The notes beneath the pieces are model-generated. The model searched no databases, had not been told where the DNA came from, and saw only the letters and a list, made by a program, of their open reading frames with translations. Source: Chryseobacterium luteum (lineage in GTDB: Bacteria; Bacteroidota; Bacteroidia; Flavobacteriales; Weeksellaceae). From it: a stretch of 64,000 nt of DNA. Made by a program: the position numbers and the translations under genes. Shown here in pieces: positions 35,065 through 63,962 of the stretch. The stretch lies in NCBI RefSeq assembly GCF_000737785.1, contig NZ_JPRO01000014.1, positions 186,001-250,000 on the forward strand, in the 5' to 3' direction. The stretch's first letter is position 1. The number at the start of each line of letters is the position of its first letter.

Positions 35065-36009
35065 TTACGGATAAAGTGATTTTGTTCCGTTGCTTACAAC
35101 ATTGCTTCCCAAACCTGAAAACGATACAGAGAAGTTACTCGAATTAAAGCTTAAAGAACCTGTTGGGGTACATAGTCCAAGTGCATATCTGCATTGTCCG
35201 TAGGCTCCTGTTTTCTTGGTCACCTTACTTTCGCTTTTAGCTTTGCCTAAGCTTATATTTCCCCAGTCACTTACGTCGACATTAGAAACCGTAGAACCGG
35301 AATAGTAGATGGTGATCTGATAACCGATTTCGCCTCTTTTAGATCCCCAAAGCCACTTGGCCGTCCACCATTCCTTAAACCATTTTGAAGATACTTTAGC
35401 CTGGGCATCGCTGGGAGAAGTCTCTGAATTCCCTCTGGCATCCATCATTACAAGTCCCGCAAATACGTTATCCCAGATAATCCCTGACTCATTGTAAAAA
35501 CATAGAGACGTGAATTGCTCTCCTTTGTAATTCCATGAAATTTCCAGAAGATCAGTACCGGTTTTGATTTGCTCTGAAGCAGACTCTCTAAGTCCTTTTT
35601 GAGTTTCTGTCAATTGATCTCCGGAGAATAATACTCCTATTTTTCCCACTTTTACAGTTTCAGGAGCAAGAATATTTCCTTCTGCTGTAAACTGTTCTCT
35701 GTCAGAAATTAAATCCTGTACGATATCAATCCCTTTTTGAGTTGAAAGTTTTCCTAAAACGGTAATTCCGGTGATCTGTAAATCGTTCTTTAGATACTGC
35801 TCAAGATTTTTCTTCGAATCATTAATCTGGATCTGAACATTTTCCGGAACAGTCTTTAATCCCGGTGTAATTTCCTTTTTCAGGTCAGAAGTTGATACTT
35901 TAGAGACAGAAGATTCCTGCATCATTTCACTGTTGTCATCCTGACAGGCAGTAAGCGTTAGTACCGATATCACGGCAAAAAGCTTGAAAGTAGTAACAAG
36001 TTTTTTCAT
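35065..36009 (-). CDS. Lipoprotein of unknown function
   Basis: 314 residues. Lipobox LTAC (Cys 22) followed by QDDN. Residues 40-160 are helix-prone with many Lys/Glu; the C-terminal half contains a Trp-rich stretch (WFKEWWTAKWLWGSKRG) and a Ser/Gly/Asn-rich beta segment near the end (SLSFNSSNFSVSFSGLGSN). No known family recognised. It has a free-standing context with repeat-rich DNA upstream. Confidence 0.75.
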   Translation of the reverse strand: MKKLVTTFKLFAVISVLTLTACQDDNSEMMQESSVSKVSTSDLKKEITPGLKTVPENVQIQINDSKKNLEQYLKNDLQITGITVLGKLSTQKGIDIVQDLISDREQFTAEGNILAPETVKVGKIGVLFSGDQLTETQKGLRESASEQIKTGTDLLEISWNYKGEQFTSLCFYNESGIIWDNVFAGLVMMDARGNSETSPSDAQAKVSSKWFKEWWTAKWLWGSKRGEIGYQITIYYSGSTVSNVDVSDWGNISLGKAKSESKVTKKTGAYGQCRYALGLCTPTGSLSFNSSNFSVSFSGLGSNVVSNGTKSLYP

Positions 36010-36114
36010 AGTTCAATATTTAATGATTTTGTGTATACTAAATATAGTGAAATTAATCATAAATCTCTTTTGTTTGAATTAAATATTTGTGAACTGAAAG
36101 TTGAGGGGAGGTTA

Positions 36115-36212
36115 AGGAGAGGGGAGAATCAAGAGCCAAGAGTCAAGAGTAAAGATGCCAGACGTTAGATATCTGATATCTGATATCTGATATCAGATAT
36201 CTGATATCAGAC
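36115..36212. repeat. Phase-locked heptad repeat tract (14 units)
   Basis: AGA occurs at 36118, 36125, 36132, 36139, 36146, 36153, 36160 and 36167. TGA or AGA then continues in the same phase at 36174, 36181, 36188, 36195, 36202 and 36209. The last six units (36168-36209) are near-identical GATATC(T/A). On the opposite strand the consensus is NTCTNNN. Confidence 0.8.
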
Positions 36213-36242
36213 ATTAGTAGTGGTGGCTTCGAGAGTTTCAGC
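36208..36242. repeat. Composite-repeat core, copy 1
   Basis: 35 bp that align with the reverse complement of 55771-55805 at 29 positions, with identical order of flanking modules (heptad tract on one side, CTCAAAC tract on the other). Confidence 0.7.
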
Positions 36243-36329
36243 AACCGGATATTTATGCTTATTAGCTAGGATTATAGATACCAGAATCAGACGATAAATC
36301 ATTAACTCAACAACAAGTAACTAGCAACA

Positions 36330-36404
36330 CTCCAAACCCATTTACTCTCCCCACTCAAACTCTCAAACCCTAATACTCCCGTACTCTCAAACCCGGGAAC
36401 GCTC
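36330..36404. repeat. CTCAAAC-family degenerate tract
   Basis: Repeated CTCCAAACCC, CCACTCAAACTCTCAAACCC and GTACTCTCAAACCC words at 7-8 bp spacing. Related tracts are at about 4860-4908, and in inverted orientation at 1836-1882 and 55720-55765. Confidence 0.6.
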
Positions 36405-36475
36405 CAAAATCTTAAAATTTGTTTAAAATTTTAGTTTACCGTAAATAAATGTATAAACTTTCGTAATTTTACCCC

Positions 36476-36811
36476 ATGGAATTAAGCATTGGAGAAATGG
36501 CACTGATCGCGGTGGCGATTGTTGTATTATTCGGTCCGGATAAACTTCCTCAGATAGCGCGTGACCTTGGAGCAGGCGTTAGAAAGATGCGCGGAGCAGT
36601 GGAAGACATTAAAACTGAGATCATGAAGGAAACCGACAACCCGGTTTCTGAGATCAAGCGCGAAATTGAGAAGGTAAAAGATGCAGCAAAAGACTTCAAT
36701 CCCATGAAGGATATCCAGAAAGATATTGTGACTGAACCTTCCGTTACTAATGAACCTCTTAAACTCAAGCCTGCCGACGACGAAAATTACGAAGGGCCTG
36801 TAAGCAGATAA
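36476..36811 (+). CDS. tatA: Twin-arginine translocase subunit TatA/E-like
   Basis: 111 residues. Short N-terminal membrane helix (about 7-22, MALIAVAIVVLFGPDKLP) with the FGPDKLP hinge, then the amphipathic helix IARDLGAGVRKMRGAVED and a charged tail. TatA oligomers form the pore for folded twin-arginine substrates. TatB-like character cannot be excluded because Bacteroidota often have more than one TatA-type protein. No tatC is adjacent. The stop is 3 bp before the PAP2 gene, so they are likely co-transcribed. Confidence 0.9.
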   Translation: MELSIGEMALIAVAIVVLFGPDKLPQIARDLGAGVRKMRGAVEDIKTEIMKETDNPVSEIKREIEKVKDAAKDFNPMKDIQKDIVTEPSVTNEPLKLKPADDENYEGPVSR

Positions 36812-48753: not shown

Positions 48754-48913
48754 GTCATTGCGAGGAGCGAAGCGACGAAGCAATCTCTTTAAAACAATGC
48801 TAAGACCTAATGTTCTAAACAACTTAACAAAATCTTAATGGTTAAAATTGAAACCATTAAGGTCTGTTTAAGAAGTAAGATTATTAAGATTGCGTTGCTT
48901 TGCCCGCAATGAC
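48754..48913. repeat. 160-bp palindromic element beginning GTCATTGCGAGGAGCGAAG
   Basis: The left arm at 48754-48787 and the right arm at 48886-48913 are imperfect inverted repeats. A perfect 10-bp hairpin (CTTAATGGTT, 8-nt loop, AACCATTAAG) sits at 48834-48861. It has no open frame. GTCATTGCGAGG-type arms are, from memory, a widespread intergenic repeat in unrelated bacteria. Confidence 0.75.
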
Positions 48914-48939
48914 GTTGTATTATTATTTCCGGTATCTCA

Positions 48940-48981
48940 GTCTCAAGTCTCAGATCTCGTGTCTAATGTCTTGAATCTGTC
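48940..48981. repeat. Phase-locked heptad tract (6 units, NTCTNNN)
   Basis: TCT recurs exactly every 7 bp at 48941, 48948, 48955, 48962, 48969 and 48976 (GTCTCAA, GTCTCAG, ATCTCGT, GTCTAAT, GTCTTGA, ATCTGTC). It abuts the end of the response-regulator gene. Confidence 0.75.
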
Positions 48982-49343
48982 TACCCAAACATCTCCTCAA
49001 TCTGCTGCATCAGTTTTTTAATGGAATAGGGTTTCGTTACATAGGCATCGGCGCCCATTTCCATACCTTTCTCGATGTCTTTCGGGTTGTTTTTTGCGCT
49101 CAGGAATATGACTTTTGTGTCTTTCATTCTTTCATCTTCTTTAATGGCTTCCAGAGTGCTGTACCCGTCCAGGTTCGGCATCATGATGTCCAGAAGAATA
49201 ACGTCGGGAACCATTGTTTTCAGGAAATCCAGGACTTCCGTTCCGTCTCTTGCAATATAAACGTCATAGCCGTTTTTCTTAAAGCTGTATTCCAGCGACA
49301 TTAATATTTTGTGTTCGTCATCGGCAATAATGATCTTTCTCAT
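48981..49343 (-). CDS. Receiver-only response regulator
   Basis: 120 residues, a single CheY-like domain with no output domain. The acidic pocket is DD (8-9), the phosphorylated Asp 52 lies in LLDIMMP, and the conserved Thr/Ser and Lys are in IFLSAK; KPYS follows. It starts 6 bp after the hybrid sensor kinase, its probable partner. Lacking DNA binding, it must act through protein contact or a phosphorelay. This differs from the CrbS/CrbR and CbrA/CbrB pairs, whose regulators bind DNA. Confidence 0.93.
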   Translation of the reverse strand: MRKIIIADDEHKILMSLEYSFKKNGYDVYIARDGTEVLDFLKTMVPDVILLDIMMPNLDGYSTLEAIKEDERMKDTKVIFLSAKNNPKDIEKGMEMGADAYVTKPYSIKKLMQQIEEMFG

Positions 49344-54206: not shown

Positions 54207-55586
54207 TTAAAGGTAAATCTGAAACTGTACAATGAATTCGCCTTTTGAAGAAGGGCTTTCCGTAGGGCTGGTATACACAGGTCTTGTGGAATATTGTGTG
54301 GTGATCTTTGCATGATGCCCGTCTATAAACCAGTTGGCGCCTACATCAAACTGTGAAGACGGCTTATCCAATGCTTCAAAGCTTTTATGGGTATATGCCG
54401 CGAAAGGCTGTATTCTGATCTTCGGTTTTTCTGACTGGCTGGGAAGAAGCAAGCCTGCCTGGGCATAAACCACATTCCCAGTTCCTATCATTGGTTGAAG
54501 GTTTCCGGGACCTGCAATCGCTTTGTTTCCCGTGAAATTAGGATCAGAGGCTGCAATATTCATTGTTCCCAGATTTCTGATGTAATTAGGACCGAAATTA
54601 TAGTTGTAATATCCGGCATAGGCAGAAACGGCCATTTTATGTTTCGCATTTCCCAAAGGAATATCTGCAAAGGCGTCTACTGCTACAAGTGTGATATCAT
54701 GTTTTTCAATATTGGAATTAACAGATGTTCTGGTCCCGTCTGTCTGATGATAAAAACCTGCACCCACATTGAAAACTTTCTTTGTTCCCAAATACGAACC
54801 CACTTTGAAAGGAAGTGTATTGGATTCTTCATCCAGAAACTGATATTCCACATATCCGGCTTTTGAAAAGCTTGGGTTTCCATTGTTATCCACGGCTGCG
54901 GCTCTTGCAGGATCTGTGACGTTCACCGGAACCAAGTCGGTTGCAAAAGGTTTGTTTAAGCTGAAGCGGTATTCCAGTTTTCCATATTTTCCTTTGGCAA
55001 ACATTCCCAGCTGTCTTGCAAACTGATCGGAATTGTCAATTAACGGCCATGAGAAAATAGGAGAGTCTACAGTAAGGAAATTCAGGGTCGAAGCCATAGT
55101 CATACGGGAAAGTCCCATGTAGTAATGAAGCCCTGCCCCTAAAGATAAACTGAATTTTCCTGCTTCTCCGGGTAAAATAACTGCATACTCATTCCATGCA
55201 TCATGAAAAAATAACTGTGGTTTCTTCCCGTTTCCATACCCTCCTGTCCCTGTAGTGCCTGTTGCCCCACCATTAATGAAGGTCTGGTTATTGATCCCGA
55301 AATGGGCCAGGATCATGTATCTTTTAGAAATTTGTGCGTACATTAAAGCACGTAATCTTCTGTTTCCCAGACTCCACGAATTGTCGGTGGCTTCTCCTGC
55401 AACCATGCTTCCCGGGTTCATCTGGGTATTTCTGAGCCAGAACTGGTCCCATAAAATAAATCTGATGTACTTGTCTCCTTCCGGATTGAGGTTTAATTTT
55501 AATCCGCCTCCGTAATCAGGAGAACCCTGTGAATATAAAGAACTGCTTATTAGGGCTAATCCAATAAATGAAAGTAATTTCTTCAT
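54207..55586 (-). CDS. Outer-membrane porin-like beta-barrel protein
   Basis: 459 residues with a signal peptide (MKKLLSFIGLALISSSLYSQ). The chain is dominated by amphipathic strands (YGKLEYRFSLNKPF, KVGSYLGTKKVFNVGAGFYH) and ends GEFIVQFQIYL with a terminal aromatic-aliphatic strand, as expected for a 16-18-strand barrel. It resembles porins encoded next to carboxylate transporters. First gene of the module, 50 bp before the MHS transporter, so it probably admits the same solute through the outer membrane. Confidence 0.82.
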   Translation of the reverse strand: MKKLLSFIGLALISSSLYSQGSPDYGGGLKLNLNPEGDKYIRFILWDQFWLRNTQMNPGSMVAGEATDNSWSLGNRRLRALMYAQISKRYMILAHFGINNQTFINGGATGTTGTGGYGNGKKPQLFFHDAWNEYAVILPGEAGKFSLSLGAGLHYYMGLSRMTMASTLNFLTVDSPIFSWPLIDNSDQFARQLGMFAKGKYGKLEYRFSLNKPFATDLVPVNVTDPARAAAVDNNGNPSFSKAGYVEYQFLDEESNTLPFKVGSYLGTKKVFNVGAGFYHQTDGTRTSVNSNIEKHDITLVAVDAFADIPLGNAKHKMAVSAYAGYYNYNFGPNYIRNLGTMNIAASDPNFTGNKAIAGPGNLQPMIGTGNVVYAQAGLLLPSQSEKPKIRIQPFAAYTHKSFEALDKPSSQFDVGANWFIDGHHAKITTQYSTRPVYTSPTESPSSKGEFIVQFQIYL

Positions 55587-55719
55587 AAATTATCAATTTT
55601 TGGCGTTGTTTTTTGTGAAAGCCAAATTGTAATTAATAATTTATTTAAAGAAATTTAATATATATTATTGGTAAGTATATAGTTTTTACTTAACTGGTTG
55701 GTTTTTAGTGACGAGTAGT

Positions 55720-55765
55720 GGAGTTTAAAAGTCTGAGTGTTTGAGAGTAAATGAGTTTGGGTAGC
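55720..55765. repeat. CTCAAAC-family tract, minus orientation
   Basis: GAGTGTTTGAGAGTAAATGA and GAGTTT words; the reverse complement resembles 36330-36404. It is part of composite-repeat copy 2. Confidence 0.55.
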
Positions 55766-55770
55766 TGGTA

Positions 55771-55805
55771 GCTGACATTCTCGAAGCAACCACCGCTATT
55801 GTCTG
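55771..55805. repeat. Composite-repeat core, copy 2 (inverted)
   Basis: The reverse complement matches 36208-36242 at 29 of 35 positions. It is followed by a heptad tract and preceded by a CTCAAAC tract, in mirrored order to copy 1. Confidence 0.7.
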
Positions 55806-55870
55806 AAATTTGAAATCTGATGTCTTATGTTTGACATCTTGATTCTTAGCTCTTGATTCTAATATCTTAC
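55801..55870. repeat. Phase-locked heptad tract (10 units, NTYTNNN)
   Basis: Ten consecutive heptads with T-(C/T)-T at positions 2-4: GTCTGAA, ATTTGAA, ATCTGAT, GTCTTAT, GTTTGAC, ATCTTGA, TTCTTAG, CTCTTGA, TTCTAAT, ATCTTAC. It ends exactly where the following minus-strand gene ends. Confidence 0.8.
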
Positions 55871-56287
55871 CTACTTCTTAAACCTTTCCCACTTAATCAA
55901 CATATACTTATCAGCAAATTGGGTAATGATAAGGCCGGAGTTTTTAATGTTTTCTTCCTGAGCAATATATTCAATCAGCTCATTTTGTTTTAAGATTTTA
56001 TAAACAGGATGGAATTCAGAATGGGGCGGTCTTGTGATATTGTATTTCTTGATCCATGAACTGATGGTTACATGAGAAACTCCGATAATCCGCTCTATTT
56101 CACGGAAGCTTAGACCTTCAAGATAGAGTTGTAATGCTTTGGTTACATAGTAGTCATCAATCTGTTTCCCCATTTTTTTAACGGTGAAATAATACTTGCA
56201 GTCTTTGCAGAGGAAACGTTGTTTTTCGTTGATGATTCCGCTTTTTACAATCTCATTACCACCACATTTTGGACACTTATTTTCCAT
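55871..56287 (-). CDS. Zinc-ribbon/HTH DNA-binding protein related to IS1-type InsA
   Basis: 138 residues. N-terminal CPKCGG and CKDCKYYF (CxxC...CxxC zinc ribbon, residues 5-30) followed by a helix-turn-helix (LYLEGLSFREIERIIGVSH, then VTISSWIKKY), as in InsA and transposase N-termini. The last 45 residues are a small helical domain; there is no DDE catalytic domain and no inverted repeats or InsB frame nearby. It is therefore probably a domesticated transposase DNA-binding protein acting as a regulator. It is divergent from the arginine cluster. Confidence 0.8.
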   Translation of the reverse strand: MENKCPKCGGNEIVKSGIINEKQRFLCKDCKYYFTVKKMGKQIDDYYVTKALQLYLEGLSFREIERIIGVSHVTISSWIKKYNITRPPHSEFHPVYKILKQNELIEYIAQEENIKNSGLIITQFADKYMLIKWERFKK

Positions 56288-61839: not shown

Positions 61840-62634
61840 ATGAAAGATAAATTATACATCATAAAAATCGGCGGTAATCTAATTGATGATGAACAATTAC
61901 TGGACGGATTTTTAGAGCAGTTTTCTGAAATTAACGAAAAGAAAATTTTAGTTCATGGAGGCGGAAAACTGGCAACCACTCTGGCTGATAAATTAGGTGT
62001 TGAACAAAAAATGATCAACGGACGGAGAATCACCAATAAAGATACGCTGGATATTGTGGCAATGGTGTATGCAGGAAGTATCAATAAAAATATTGTGGCA
62101 AAGCTTCAGCAGAAAAAATGCAGGGCAATAGGTTTTTCCGGAGCCGATGCGAATTTAATTAAAGCAAGGAAAAGAGAACATGCGGAAATAGATTTCGGAT
62201 TTGTAGGGGATATTGAGAAGAAAAGCGTAAACAGGAAATTGATCTCAAAATTGATTAAGCTTAAGCTTGTCCCTGTTTTTTCAGCGATTACGCATGACAA
62301 AAAGGGAAATCTTTTCAATACCAACGCAGATACGATTGCTTCAGTCATTGCTCAGGCTTTATCTGCAAAATATGATGTTGAGCTGTTGTATTGTTTCGAT
62401 AAAAAAGGGGTTTTGGAAGATGTCGGAAATCCTGAATCTGTTATAAAAAATATTTCGGAAGAAAAATTTTCAACATTGAAAAATGAAGGAAAACTTCATA
62501 AAGGAATTCTGCCCAAATTAGAAAACGCGCTTGGAGCAATAAAAAACAACGTAAACAAGGTATTCCTGATTAAAGAAACCGAATTAAAAAACCATATAGA
62601 AAACCATCATGCAGGAACTGAAATCTGTTTATAA
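61840..62634 (+). CDS. argB: Acetylglutamate kinase
   Basis: 264 residues, amino-acid kinase fold. The first Gly-rich loop is IKIGGNLID and the second VHGGGK (about 39-44); DTIASVIAQALSA is the late nucleotide-binding segment. It phosphorylates N-acylglutamate, the second step of the pathway. Its 3' end overlaps the M20 gene by 26 bp, implying coupled translation. No N-terminal feedback extension of the hexameric type is present. Confidence 0.94.
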   Translation: MKDKLYIIKIGGNLIDDEQLLDGFLEQFSEINEKKILVHGGGKLATTLADKLGVEQKMINGRRITNKDTLDIVAMVYAGSINKNIVAKLQQKKCRAIGFSGADANLIKARKREHAEIDFGFVGDIEKKSVNRKLISKLIKLKLVPVFSAITHDKKGNLFNTNADTIASVIAQALSAKYDVELLYCFDKKGVLEDVGNPESVIKNISEEKFSTLKNEGKLHKGILPKLENALGAIKNNVNKVFLIKETELKNHIENHHAGTEICL

Positions 62635-63691
62635 TAAAGAAGAGCTACTGAATCAGGCAGTTGAATTGCTGAAAAAACTGATCGCAATTCCTTCATTCAG
62701 CAAGGATGAATACAATACGTCCGTAGAAATTGAGAATTTTTTTAAAGAACATCATATTCCTGCAAAACGTTTTAAAAACAACATTTGGGCAGTCAACAAA
62801 AACTTTGACGTATTCAAGCCGTCCATTCTGCTGAATACACATCATGATACGGTAAAACCTAATAAAGCATACACATCAGATCCTTTTCTTCCGGTTGAAA
62901 AGGACGGTAAACTGTACGGATTGGGAAGTAATGATGCCGGAGCTTCTCTGGTTTCCATGACTCAGGTTTTTTTACACTTTTATGAAAAAGAAGATTTAAA
63001 ATTTAATTTAGTTATTGCTTTGACGGCTGAGGAGGAGATTTCAGGATTTGATGGAATTGAGGCCTTATTTCCACAGCTTCCGAATATCGAACTCGCCATT
63101 GTAGGAGAACCCACGCAGATGAATCTGGCGATCGCGGAAAAAGGACTTTTGGTGATAGACGGGGAAATGAAAGGAACTCCTTCTCATGCTGCTCATCCGA
63201 ACGATGATAACTCCATTGTAAAATGTATGCAAGATCTTCAGAATATTCTGAGTTTCAGATTTCCGAAGGTTTCAGATTATTTGGGGGAAGTTAAGATTAC
63301 GCTGTCAGGAATTCATTCGGGGGTTCAGCATAACGTAGTTCCGGAAGCCTGTACCTTCACTTTGGATGTAAGGGTTACGGATGAATATTCCAATAAAGAA
63401 GCATTTGAAATCATTCAGTCACACATGAAATCAACATTAACGGCCAGGTCTTTCAGGTTGAATTCCTCAAAAATCGAAATGGATCACCCTTTTGTTCAGG
63501 CAGGTCTGGAAACAGGGAGGACAACCTATGGTTCGCCAACATCATCAGATCAGGCGATTATTCCATGCACATCCGTTAAAATAGGTCCCGGCGACAGCAC
63601 GCGCTCCCACACGGCAGATGAATACATTTATATAAAAGAAATAGAAGAAGGAATCGAGATCTATATCAGGATCTTAGAAAAAGTTTTATAA
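62609..63691 (+). CDS. argE: M20-family deacylase, probable N-acetylcitrulline/acetylornithine deacetylase
   Basis: 360 residues. Metal-binding and catalytic residues of M20 are visible: NTHHDTV (metal His and adjacent Asp 80), SNDAGA (bridging Asp 109), TAEEEISG (catalytic Glu pair about 141-142), VGEPT and SHTADEYI near the end. Because the neighbouring carbamoyltransferase is of the acylornithine type, the expected substrate is N-acylcitrulline. Symbol argE is by position; true specificity unverified. Confidence 0.88.
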   Translation: MQELKSVYNKEELLNQAVELLKKLIAIPSFSKDEYNTSVEIENFFKEHHIPAKRFKNNIWAVNKNFDVFKPSILLNTHHDTVKPNKAYTSDPFLPVEKDGKLYGLGSNDAGASLVSMTQVFLHFYEKEDLKFNLVIALTAEEEISGFDGIEALFPQLPNIELAIVGEPTQMNLAIAEKGLLVIDGEMKGTPSHAAHPNDDNSIVKCMQDLQNILSFRFPKVSDYLGEVKITLSGIHSGVQHNVVPEACTFTLDVRVTDEYSNKEAFEIIQSHMKSTLTARSFRLNSSKIEMDHPFVQAGLETGRTTYGSPTSSDQAIIPCTSVKIGPGDSTRSHTADEYIYIKEIEEGIEIYIRILEKVL

Positions 63692-63692
63692 A

Positions 63693-63779
63693 GAGAGAAG
63701 TTAGAAGTTAGAAGTTAGAAGCCGGAAATTTATGCATACGATGGCACTAATATCTAATATCTAACATCTAATATCTAAA
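63693..63779. repeat. Inverted pair of heptad tracts before argH
   Basis: 63700-63720 is exactly three GTTAGAA units (preceded by GAGAGAA at 63693). 63752-63779 is ATCTAAT, ATCTAAC, ATCTAAT, ATCTAAA. The first set is the reverse complement type of the second, so the region can fold back. The rest of the 271-bp gap shows no gene. Confidence 0.75.
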
Positions 63780-63962
63780 AAATAAATGTTTTGACAACAC
63801 TCAGCAGACGATGAAGTTTGAATATTTTTAATAAAGATTTATGCAAAAATTAAAATTAAGAATGAAAAGCTTAAAAATGTGGAAATGTTTAAAGTTTTAT
63901 GAAGAATGAAAGAAGCTCTGCTGAGCAAGTCAAAGCAAAACTGAATTTTAAAAGAAAAAATT

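Follow-up and report, generated by a model that had tools for sequence, protein, structure and literature searches.

Intergenic heptad arrays with an AGA/TCT core in Chryseobacterium luteum and other Bacteroidota are polar with respect to neighbouring genes

The 7-nt class among the long simple sequence repeats of Mrazek (2007) and the cyanobacterial STRR tandem heptads of Mazel (1990) are said to be simple or consensus repeats, not repeats with a fixed core among free positions. The closest described counterparts of the arrays reported here are the heterogeneous (GGGANTN)n heptads that Rehm et al. (2015) found in two Xanthomonas genomes and the GGGGA(C/T)T heptads of Nostoc (PMC4692102). According to the accessible portions of that paper, the G-rich strand is the sense strand in the first 50 bp past a stop codon and the antisense strand in the last 50 bp ahead of a start codon, and the heptads lie nearer to the 5' neighbouring ORF whatever its orientation, with averages of 28 and 160 nt in Xanthomonas. 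Convergent pairs are many in Xanthomonas and few in Nostoc, 83% of the repeats have kept their gene context, though not their length, between the two Xanthomonas genomes, and most heptad repeats of one Xanthomonas are transcribed. Quadruplexes formed in vitro; the link of this best-studied case to G-quadruplexes is tentative, and the authors state that a functional role has yet to be worked out (PMC4692102).

Direct repeats of TAACTGA (MacGregor 2015, PMC4679880), published for Beggiatoaceae, cyanobacteria and some Bacteroidetes, in the last beside other heptamers, are likewise intergenic heptads that often lie near start codons. In the accessible part of that paper they differ from the arrays described below in that the unit is exact, near variants are rare as repeats in the main genome and there is no TCT core; polarity relative to stop codons was not found described in the same text. 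Our literature search, limited to open papers, found no report of TCT/AGA arrays. The sequence-only reading of the present locus had taken its grammar to be undescribed, a statement overturned by these two published sets, the first of which is also intergenic, with inverted pairs and an identical polarity.

The window, i.e. the whole stretch of DNA that was analysed (64,000 nucleotides of a C. luteum contig), contains the following features:

36114-36169, minus strand: degenerate TCT heptad array of 8 units (AGA on the plus strand)
36172-36206, plus strand: near-perfect palindromic (TCTGATA)n tract, forming an opposed outward pair with array 36114-36169
36222-36246, no strand: imperfect hairpin core GGTGGCTTCGAG...CAGCAACC, recurrent next to arrays, recognized from the sequence; weak fold (z -1.2)
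36330-36395, plus strand: octad/heptad mosaic (CTCAAACY), its C-rich strand running toward a rightward gene at 36476 (TatA family)
48941-48982, plus strand: degenerate TCT heptad array of 6 units, with orthologous arrays in relatives
55728-55762, minus strand: GAG-rich octad stretch (locus L010), its C-rich strand running toward a leftward gene (54207-55586)
55767-55794, no strand: hairpin core GGTAGCTGACATTCTCGAAGCAACC; fold z -1.9
55802-55871, plus strand: degenerate TYT heptad array of 10 units, with orthologous arrays in relatives
63692-63719, minus strand: TCTAACT microsatellite of 4 units, beginning at the stop codon of an M20-peptidase gene (62609-63691)
63753-63780, plus strand: TCTAAYA tract of 4 units, the outward partner of 63692-63719

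Direct counting confirmed TCT or AGA at an exact 7-bp phase at every site that the sequence-only reading had named: AGA eight times in 36118-36169 and four times in 63696-63719, TCT six times in 48941-48978 and four times in 63753-63776, and TYT ten times in 55802-55867, where two of the 10 units read TTT instead of TCT. Its count of 14 units up to 36209 holds in so far as six later TGA or AGA units are present, but these are part of the near-perfect palindromic tract, which as (GATATCT)n can equally be read as TCT units of the opposite strand (36172-36206). Array 36114-36169 points, with the 3' end of its TCT strand, to the start of a leftward gene (35065-36009) across a gap of 104 bp. Array 48941-48982 adjoins the stop codon of a leftward response-regulator gene (48981-49343) and array 55802-55871 that of a leftward HTH-domain gene (55871-56287); with the microsatellite at 63692-63719, three tracts adjoin a stop codon (48981, 55871 and 63691) and not two, as had been counted.

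When only strict TCT runs are compared, adjacent units share 9 of 24 free positions in 36118-36160, 5 of 16 in 48941-48978 and 2 of 12 in 55802-55867. Pooled over the window's three degenerate runs, this agreement (16/52, or 0.31) equals the expectation from composition, and the earlier claim of free variation at the other four positions roughly holds for them; it fails for 36168-36208, 63696-63721 and 63747-63778, which TRF scores as ordinary tandem repeats (94%, 100% and 92% matches, respectively). The claim that the sequence is not a simple microsatellite divides in the same way, being right for the degenerate tracts (even though TRF scored AGAGTCA at 36125-36155, with 83% matches, and a 14-mer at 55836-55868, with 78%) and wrong for the near-perfect ones (92-100%). 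On the AGA strand, the window tracts carry a single GGGG in one unit (36121-36124) and lack four GGG tracts, and therefore are not classed as a quadruplex-forming repeat. No Rfam family matched window positions 35900-64000 above the gathering threshold, and a plasmid search with window positions 36050-36480 returned no similar DNA.

The heptad tracts are parts of bigger mosaics, which also hold CTCAAACY octads and a hairpin resembling GGTGGCT...AGCCACC; relatives carry GGTGGCTGAG..CTCGAAGCCACC forms of the hairpin core at 55767-55794. The octads make up a second repeat family (CTCAAACY and its GAG-rich reverse complement) in intergenic mosaics (36330-36395, 55728-55762 and loci L003-L028), and CTC octads with at least 4 units had array-type polarity in 8/8 cases. 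A dispersed hairpin-type repeat, TCATTGCGAGGAGCGAAGCGACGAAGCAATCT, occurs with its imperfect inverse at 48755-48786 and 48888-48914, ahead of array 48941, and several relatives have stretches akin to it at the same site. A TTCACTTGCGAAGCAAAATTCACCATT-like block recurs in the intergenic mosaics of loci L009, L012, L013, L016 and L020, and in one relative (G071) it is duplicated along with a heptad tract at the site corresponding to 36010-36475. The same relative has a 329-aa ORF (L193:14687-15676) that by eye looks like an insertion-sequence transposase and that sits between the halves of a GGTGGCTGA...CTCGAAGCCACC hairpin, next to an orthologous array. In genome G017, a unit of ~80 bp (hairpin plus TCT tract) is tandemly repeated at the site corresponding to 55587-55870, which indicates that a hairpin can be copied jointly with its array.

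Of the properties of these arrays, the period is the best established, and TCT is their leading, not sole, core. Runs were defined as at least 5 identical trimers, of any kind, at a fixed period, and the sample of the C. luteum genome was 748 kb (contigs C2 and C4 and the window). In this sample there were 71 runs at period 7 (59 of them intergenic) and 42 at period 14, with 0 to 4 at periods 4-6 and 8-13. Three replicates of a first-order Markov null of intergenic DNA gave 0, 0 and 1 runs at period 7; the outcome named in advance as refuting the sequence-only reading, equal frequency in shuffled DNA, was thus absent. The further copies that it predicted elsewhere in the genome were also found, with 56 exact 5-unit TCT matches at period 7 (overlapping ones included) vs 3 at period 8.

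When the degenerate runs at period 7 in noncoding DNA were sorted by trimer, AGA/TCT came first in C. luteum (11/21), in genome G022 (8/26, with AAC close at 7) and in genome G155 (3/8), as well as in seven syntenic relatives (34/49, samples that are not independent); in genome G052 it did not lead (4/15, with AAA above at 5 and AAT level at 4). A count of exact 5-unit matches at period 7 over 36 genomes of the genus gave 1944 for TCT, 1379 for CTT and 409 for TTC, counts that include overlapping matches and in which TCTT units enter both TCT and CTT; TCT at period 8 gave 97. An exact 5-unit run was present in 44 of 59 genomes (C. luteum and 58 relatives) and in 132 of 296 genomes of the phylum (C. 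luteum included), a pattern that cannot separate degenerate from perfect arrays. A 7-unit scan of named genomes yielded 118 stretches. Among the 80 loci listed from these, arrays were degenerate by the analyst's threshold in 8/38 from Bacteroidota and 1/42 from others, heptads outside Bacteroidota were mostly perfect or built of few words, and perfect TCT heptads were present in many phyla. Heptad words resembling those of the window occur in two Chryseobacterium loci (L257 and L320).

Polarity relative to genes was scored in four independent samples (C. luteum, G022, G052 and G155, the last two belonging to other families) using crude gene calls based on the longest ORFs. Although these samples are 83-90% coding by the same calls, 49 TCT arrays were noncoding vs 4 coding. 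In 40 of the 49 noncoding arrays, the nearer gene was the one lying 3' of the array as read along its TCT strand (p=9e-6), a count that replaces that of a first run (30/37). The figures for the four samples were 17/22, 12/16, 6/6 and 5/5, respectively, i.e. 11/11 for the two genomes of other families together; in syntenic relatives, which have sites in common, the figure was 34/45. Read in this direction, the distance to the gene had a median of 23 bp (mean 138) on the 3' side and of 155 bp (mean 219) on the 5' side. The TCT strand faces a stop codon in 22 arrays, 17 of which end 0-17 nt from that codon, and a start codon in 27. An inverted partner within 300 bp was found in the outward arrangement for 13 of the 49 arrays and in the inward arrangement for 0 (null: 4/668). 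Polarity is not merely a by-product of such pairs, since arrays without a partner were polar in 30/36 cases (p=7e-5); for those with a partner, the count was 10/13.

By gene order, in intergenic spaces of 80-1500 bp, 34 arrays were located between codirectional genes, 7 between divergent genes and 4 between convergent genes, at densities of 0.23, 0.12 and 0.10 per kb, respectively (p=0.046). Three CTTC arrays, all in G022, gave a polarity of 0/3. GC skew over intergenic spaces goes from G to C outward in C. luteum; the convergent and divergent spaces of G052 had no such skew. Intrinsic-terminator-like hairpins were rarer at gene ends next to arrays (8/33 vs 401/816, p=0.007), as scored by a detector that also fires on 64/520 shuffled sequences. 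When this difference was split by sample and gene order, it was significant only in codirectional spaces of distant genomes (0/9 vs 100/207), and not in the convergent spaces of those genomes or in Chryseobacterium-like samples alone (p=0.62 convergent, 0.10 codirectional). The scarcity of terminator-like hairpins near arrays points to a part in transcription termination, or just to different selection at these places.

Like the heptads of Rehm et al., TCT arrays combine a period of 7 with fixed and free positions and are over-represented outside genes. Their purine strand is sense after stop codons and antisense before start codons (40/49), they lie nearer to the gene on one defined side (medians of 23 and 155, compared with the Xanthomonas averages of 28 and 160 nt), they form inverted pairs with convergent purine strands (13/49, with 0 in the other arrangement), and they occupy the same gene context in relatives with changed length. 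Unlike those heptads, they have an AGA/TCT core of three fixed positions with no recurring G-tract, and thus no quadruplex, and they occur in Bacteroidota, with one site limited to close species. AGA/TCT arrays are real, widespread in the phylum and polar; the polarity is the new observation on them, and their core is new to an anatomy that is already published.

At three orthologous window sites, relatives with arrays retained TCT at 268/300 positions and the other positions at 266/400, in an alignment optimised on non-TCT positions that took the end of the gene as its fixed point; its phase was picked by TCT count, a choice that favours TCT and under which some aligned units are probably not homologous. 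Species with fewer than 4 TCT units were dropped from this count and site 63690 was left out. A floating-phase alignment reversed the result (TCT 0.62 vs 0.70 for the others), with wrong phases and non-array DNA aligned. As judged from these alignments, the comparison shows TCT being kept while the other positions drift, only among close species. Unit number varies between species at the three sites compared. A chain of at least 4 TCT units was present at the 48940 site in 6/8 loci at an identity of at least 87% and in 2/22 loci at 83-85%, and several of the latter loci have other hairpin-type repeats there. At the 63690 site, more distant relatives bear other purine and pyrimidine tracts (among the loci listed, with minus-strand loci not turned). 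Conservation of the arrays is shallow, and arrays come and go among species of the genus.

Our preferred, tentative reading is that these are polar intergenic heptad arrays with an anatomy of the Xanthomonas and Nostoc type and the core AGA/TCT, in which TCT is retained as a putative single-strand recognition site in border transcripts. Duplication or slippage of 7 bp would make and resize the tracts, as suggested by the period and by the occurrence of perfect tracts beside degenerate ones, and the four other positions would drift while TCT is better retained, as the three orthologous sites show for close species. Given the observed polarity, a transcript running toward the gene would carry UCU every 7 nt and one leaving the gene AGA every 7 nt, and TCT may act in such transcripts at gene borders as a repeated recognition site. 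The most plausible putative partner would be a multi-site pyrimidine-binding RNA protein. The RRM protein RbpB of Bacteroides was considered and set aside, a term search of one paper having returned no binding motif.

Three explanations had been offered in the sequence-only reading, and its interpretation is partly supported. Decayed tandem duplication fits poorly, as the degenerate runs of the window have an intact TCT beside four positions that agree no more than at random, and TCT is better retained at orthologous sites. A binding array fits best, one that would act at the nucleic-acid level with a putative partner. A structural spacer agrees with the hairpin at some sites (63690-63785, z -4.7), but only 13/49 arrays have an inverted partner.

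It is possible, if somewhat doubtful, that mutation alone explains the arrays. Slippage of 7 bp would need TCT microhomology, so that units without TCT would go uncopied and be lost, and the arrays would have no function in the cell. In the accessible parts of the literature, heptads are cited as the commonest class of long simple repeat in the majority of genomes surveyed in one study, and an interaction with the polymerase has been offered as the cause (PMC4679880, PMC4692102). The presence of perfect TCT heptads in many phyla (among the 80 loci listed of 118), the variation of unit number between species at three sites and the coming and going of arrays within the genus all agree with this explanation, as does the similarity of neighbouring units when 21 arrays are pooled (agreement at 170/312 free positions vs 0.31 by chance). 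By itself, however, slippage gives no reason to expect strands that are polar with respect to genes both before and after them, and the degenerate arrays of the window lack the excess similarity of neighbours (16/52) expected from recent copying.

Rho is the best named factor and would be a special case of the single-strand recognition that we prefer: UC every 7 nt would provide putative rut sites, transcription entering a gene from the intergenic space would be terminated, and the arrays would insulate units. We consider this unlikely. We know of no exact register for rut sites, and the free positions on the TCT strand have no excess of C over G (144 C, 151 G). The pyrimidine strand does run toward the gene on both sides, the arrays are located where intrinsic-terminator-like hairpins are rarer, and the RNA-binding domain of Rho (PF07497) is encoded in the C. 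luteum genome. Rut sites are likewise YC-containing RNA tracts; in the available text of one paper the clefts of Rho prefer YC motifs, and Rut sequences of B. subtilis are preferentially antisense to genes (PMC12350095). Their published spacing, however, is 11-15 nt in the accessible parts of two sources, compared with 7 nt in TCT arrays: a C spacing of 11-13 nt (PMC6407284) or the rule (YC)N9-13 (PMC9160355), which accommodate 14 (2x7) and not 7. Six arrays sit 1-15 nt ahead of a start codon with no promoter room between. Furthermore, three cyanobacterial genomes (one of them a metagenome assembly, the published strain not being among them) have no PF07497 match, and the heptads of Nostoc have the same polarity in the accessible text (PMC4692102).

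Quite unlikely is a mobile MITE- or REP-like inverted repeat, spread by a transposase, with TCT tracts as its outer arms and the GGTGGCT...AGCCACC hairpin as its core. Such an element would account for pairs that are outward only, for recurrent hairpin cores, for a presence confined to close species at one site and for a word order that by eye is similar across sites (TCTGAAA, TCTGATG, TCTTGCA, TCTTGAT, TCTTGGC, TCTTGAA), and the C. luteum genome has four Y1_Tnp matches. However, 36/49 arrays are equally polar although an inverted partner is missing from the 300 bp around them, and the arms at one site can differ (octads on the left and heptads on the right at 55728-55871). REP/RAYT was rejected: although Y1_Tnp genes are present, the surroundings of ~1.8 kb at 3/4 loci (L249 left out) contain, by eye, other hairpins and neither the GGTGGCT core nor a TCT array.

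Very unlikely, finally, are intercistronic RNA hairpin arms that stabilise or separate mRNAs, with TCT/AGA as the always-paired part: 63692-63719 and 63753-63780 fold as one stem with helices of 3-6 bp and a mismatch every 7 bp (z -4.7 over 63690-63785) and 36100-36225 folds with z -3.4, but single arrays (36/49) have no partner, array-bearing intergenic regions fold no better (median z -1.15, n=12) than a random part of the rest (-1.54, n=32), and RNA hairpins account for some pairs only.

In the accessible heptad literature we found no accepted explanation for the abundance of such repeats. The TCT/AGA arrays, runs of which are carried by many genomes of the phylum, form a second, independent set that agrees with the published one in polarity, pairing and placing, and because they lack recurring G-tracts, quadruplexes cannot be the reason for the anatomy common to both kinds. 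Their grammar of a fixed core among free positions offers a clean handle on what reads the register, as TCT can be scrambled and the rest kept. We suggest, with some hesitation, that polar heptad arrays may form a single class that spans phyla and whose core differs by lineage, being GGGA in Xanthomonas and Nostoc and AGA in Bacteroidota. Purine cores on the gene-leaving strand would in this class be kept in a 7-nt register by a general mechanism common to all, other than G-quadruplex formation or Rho.
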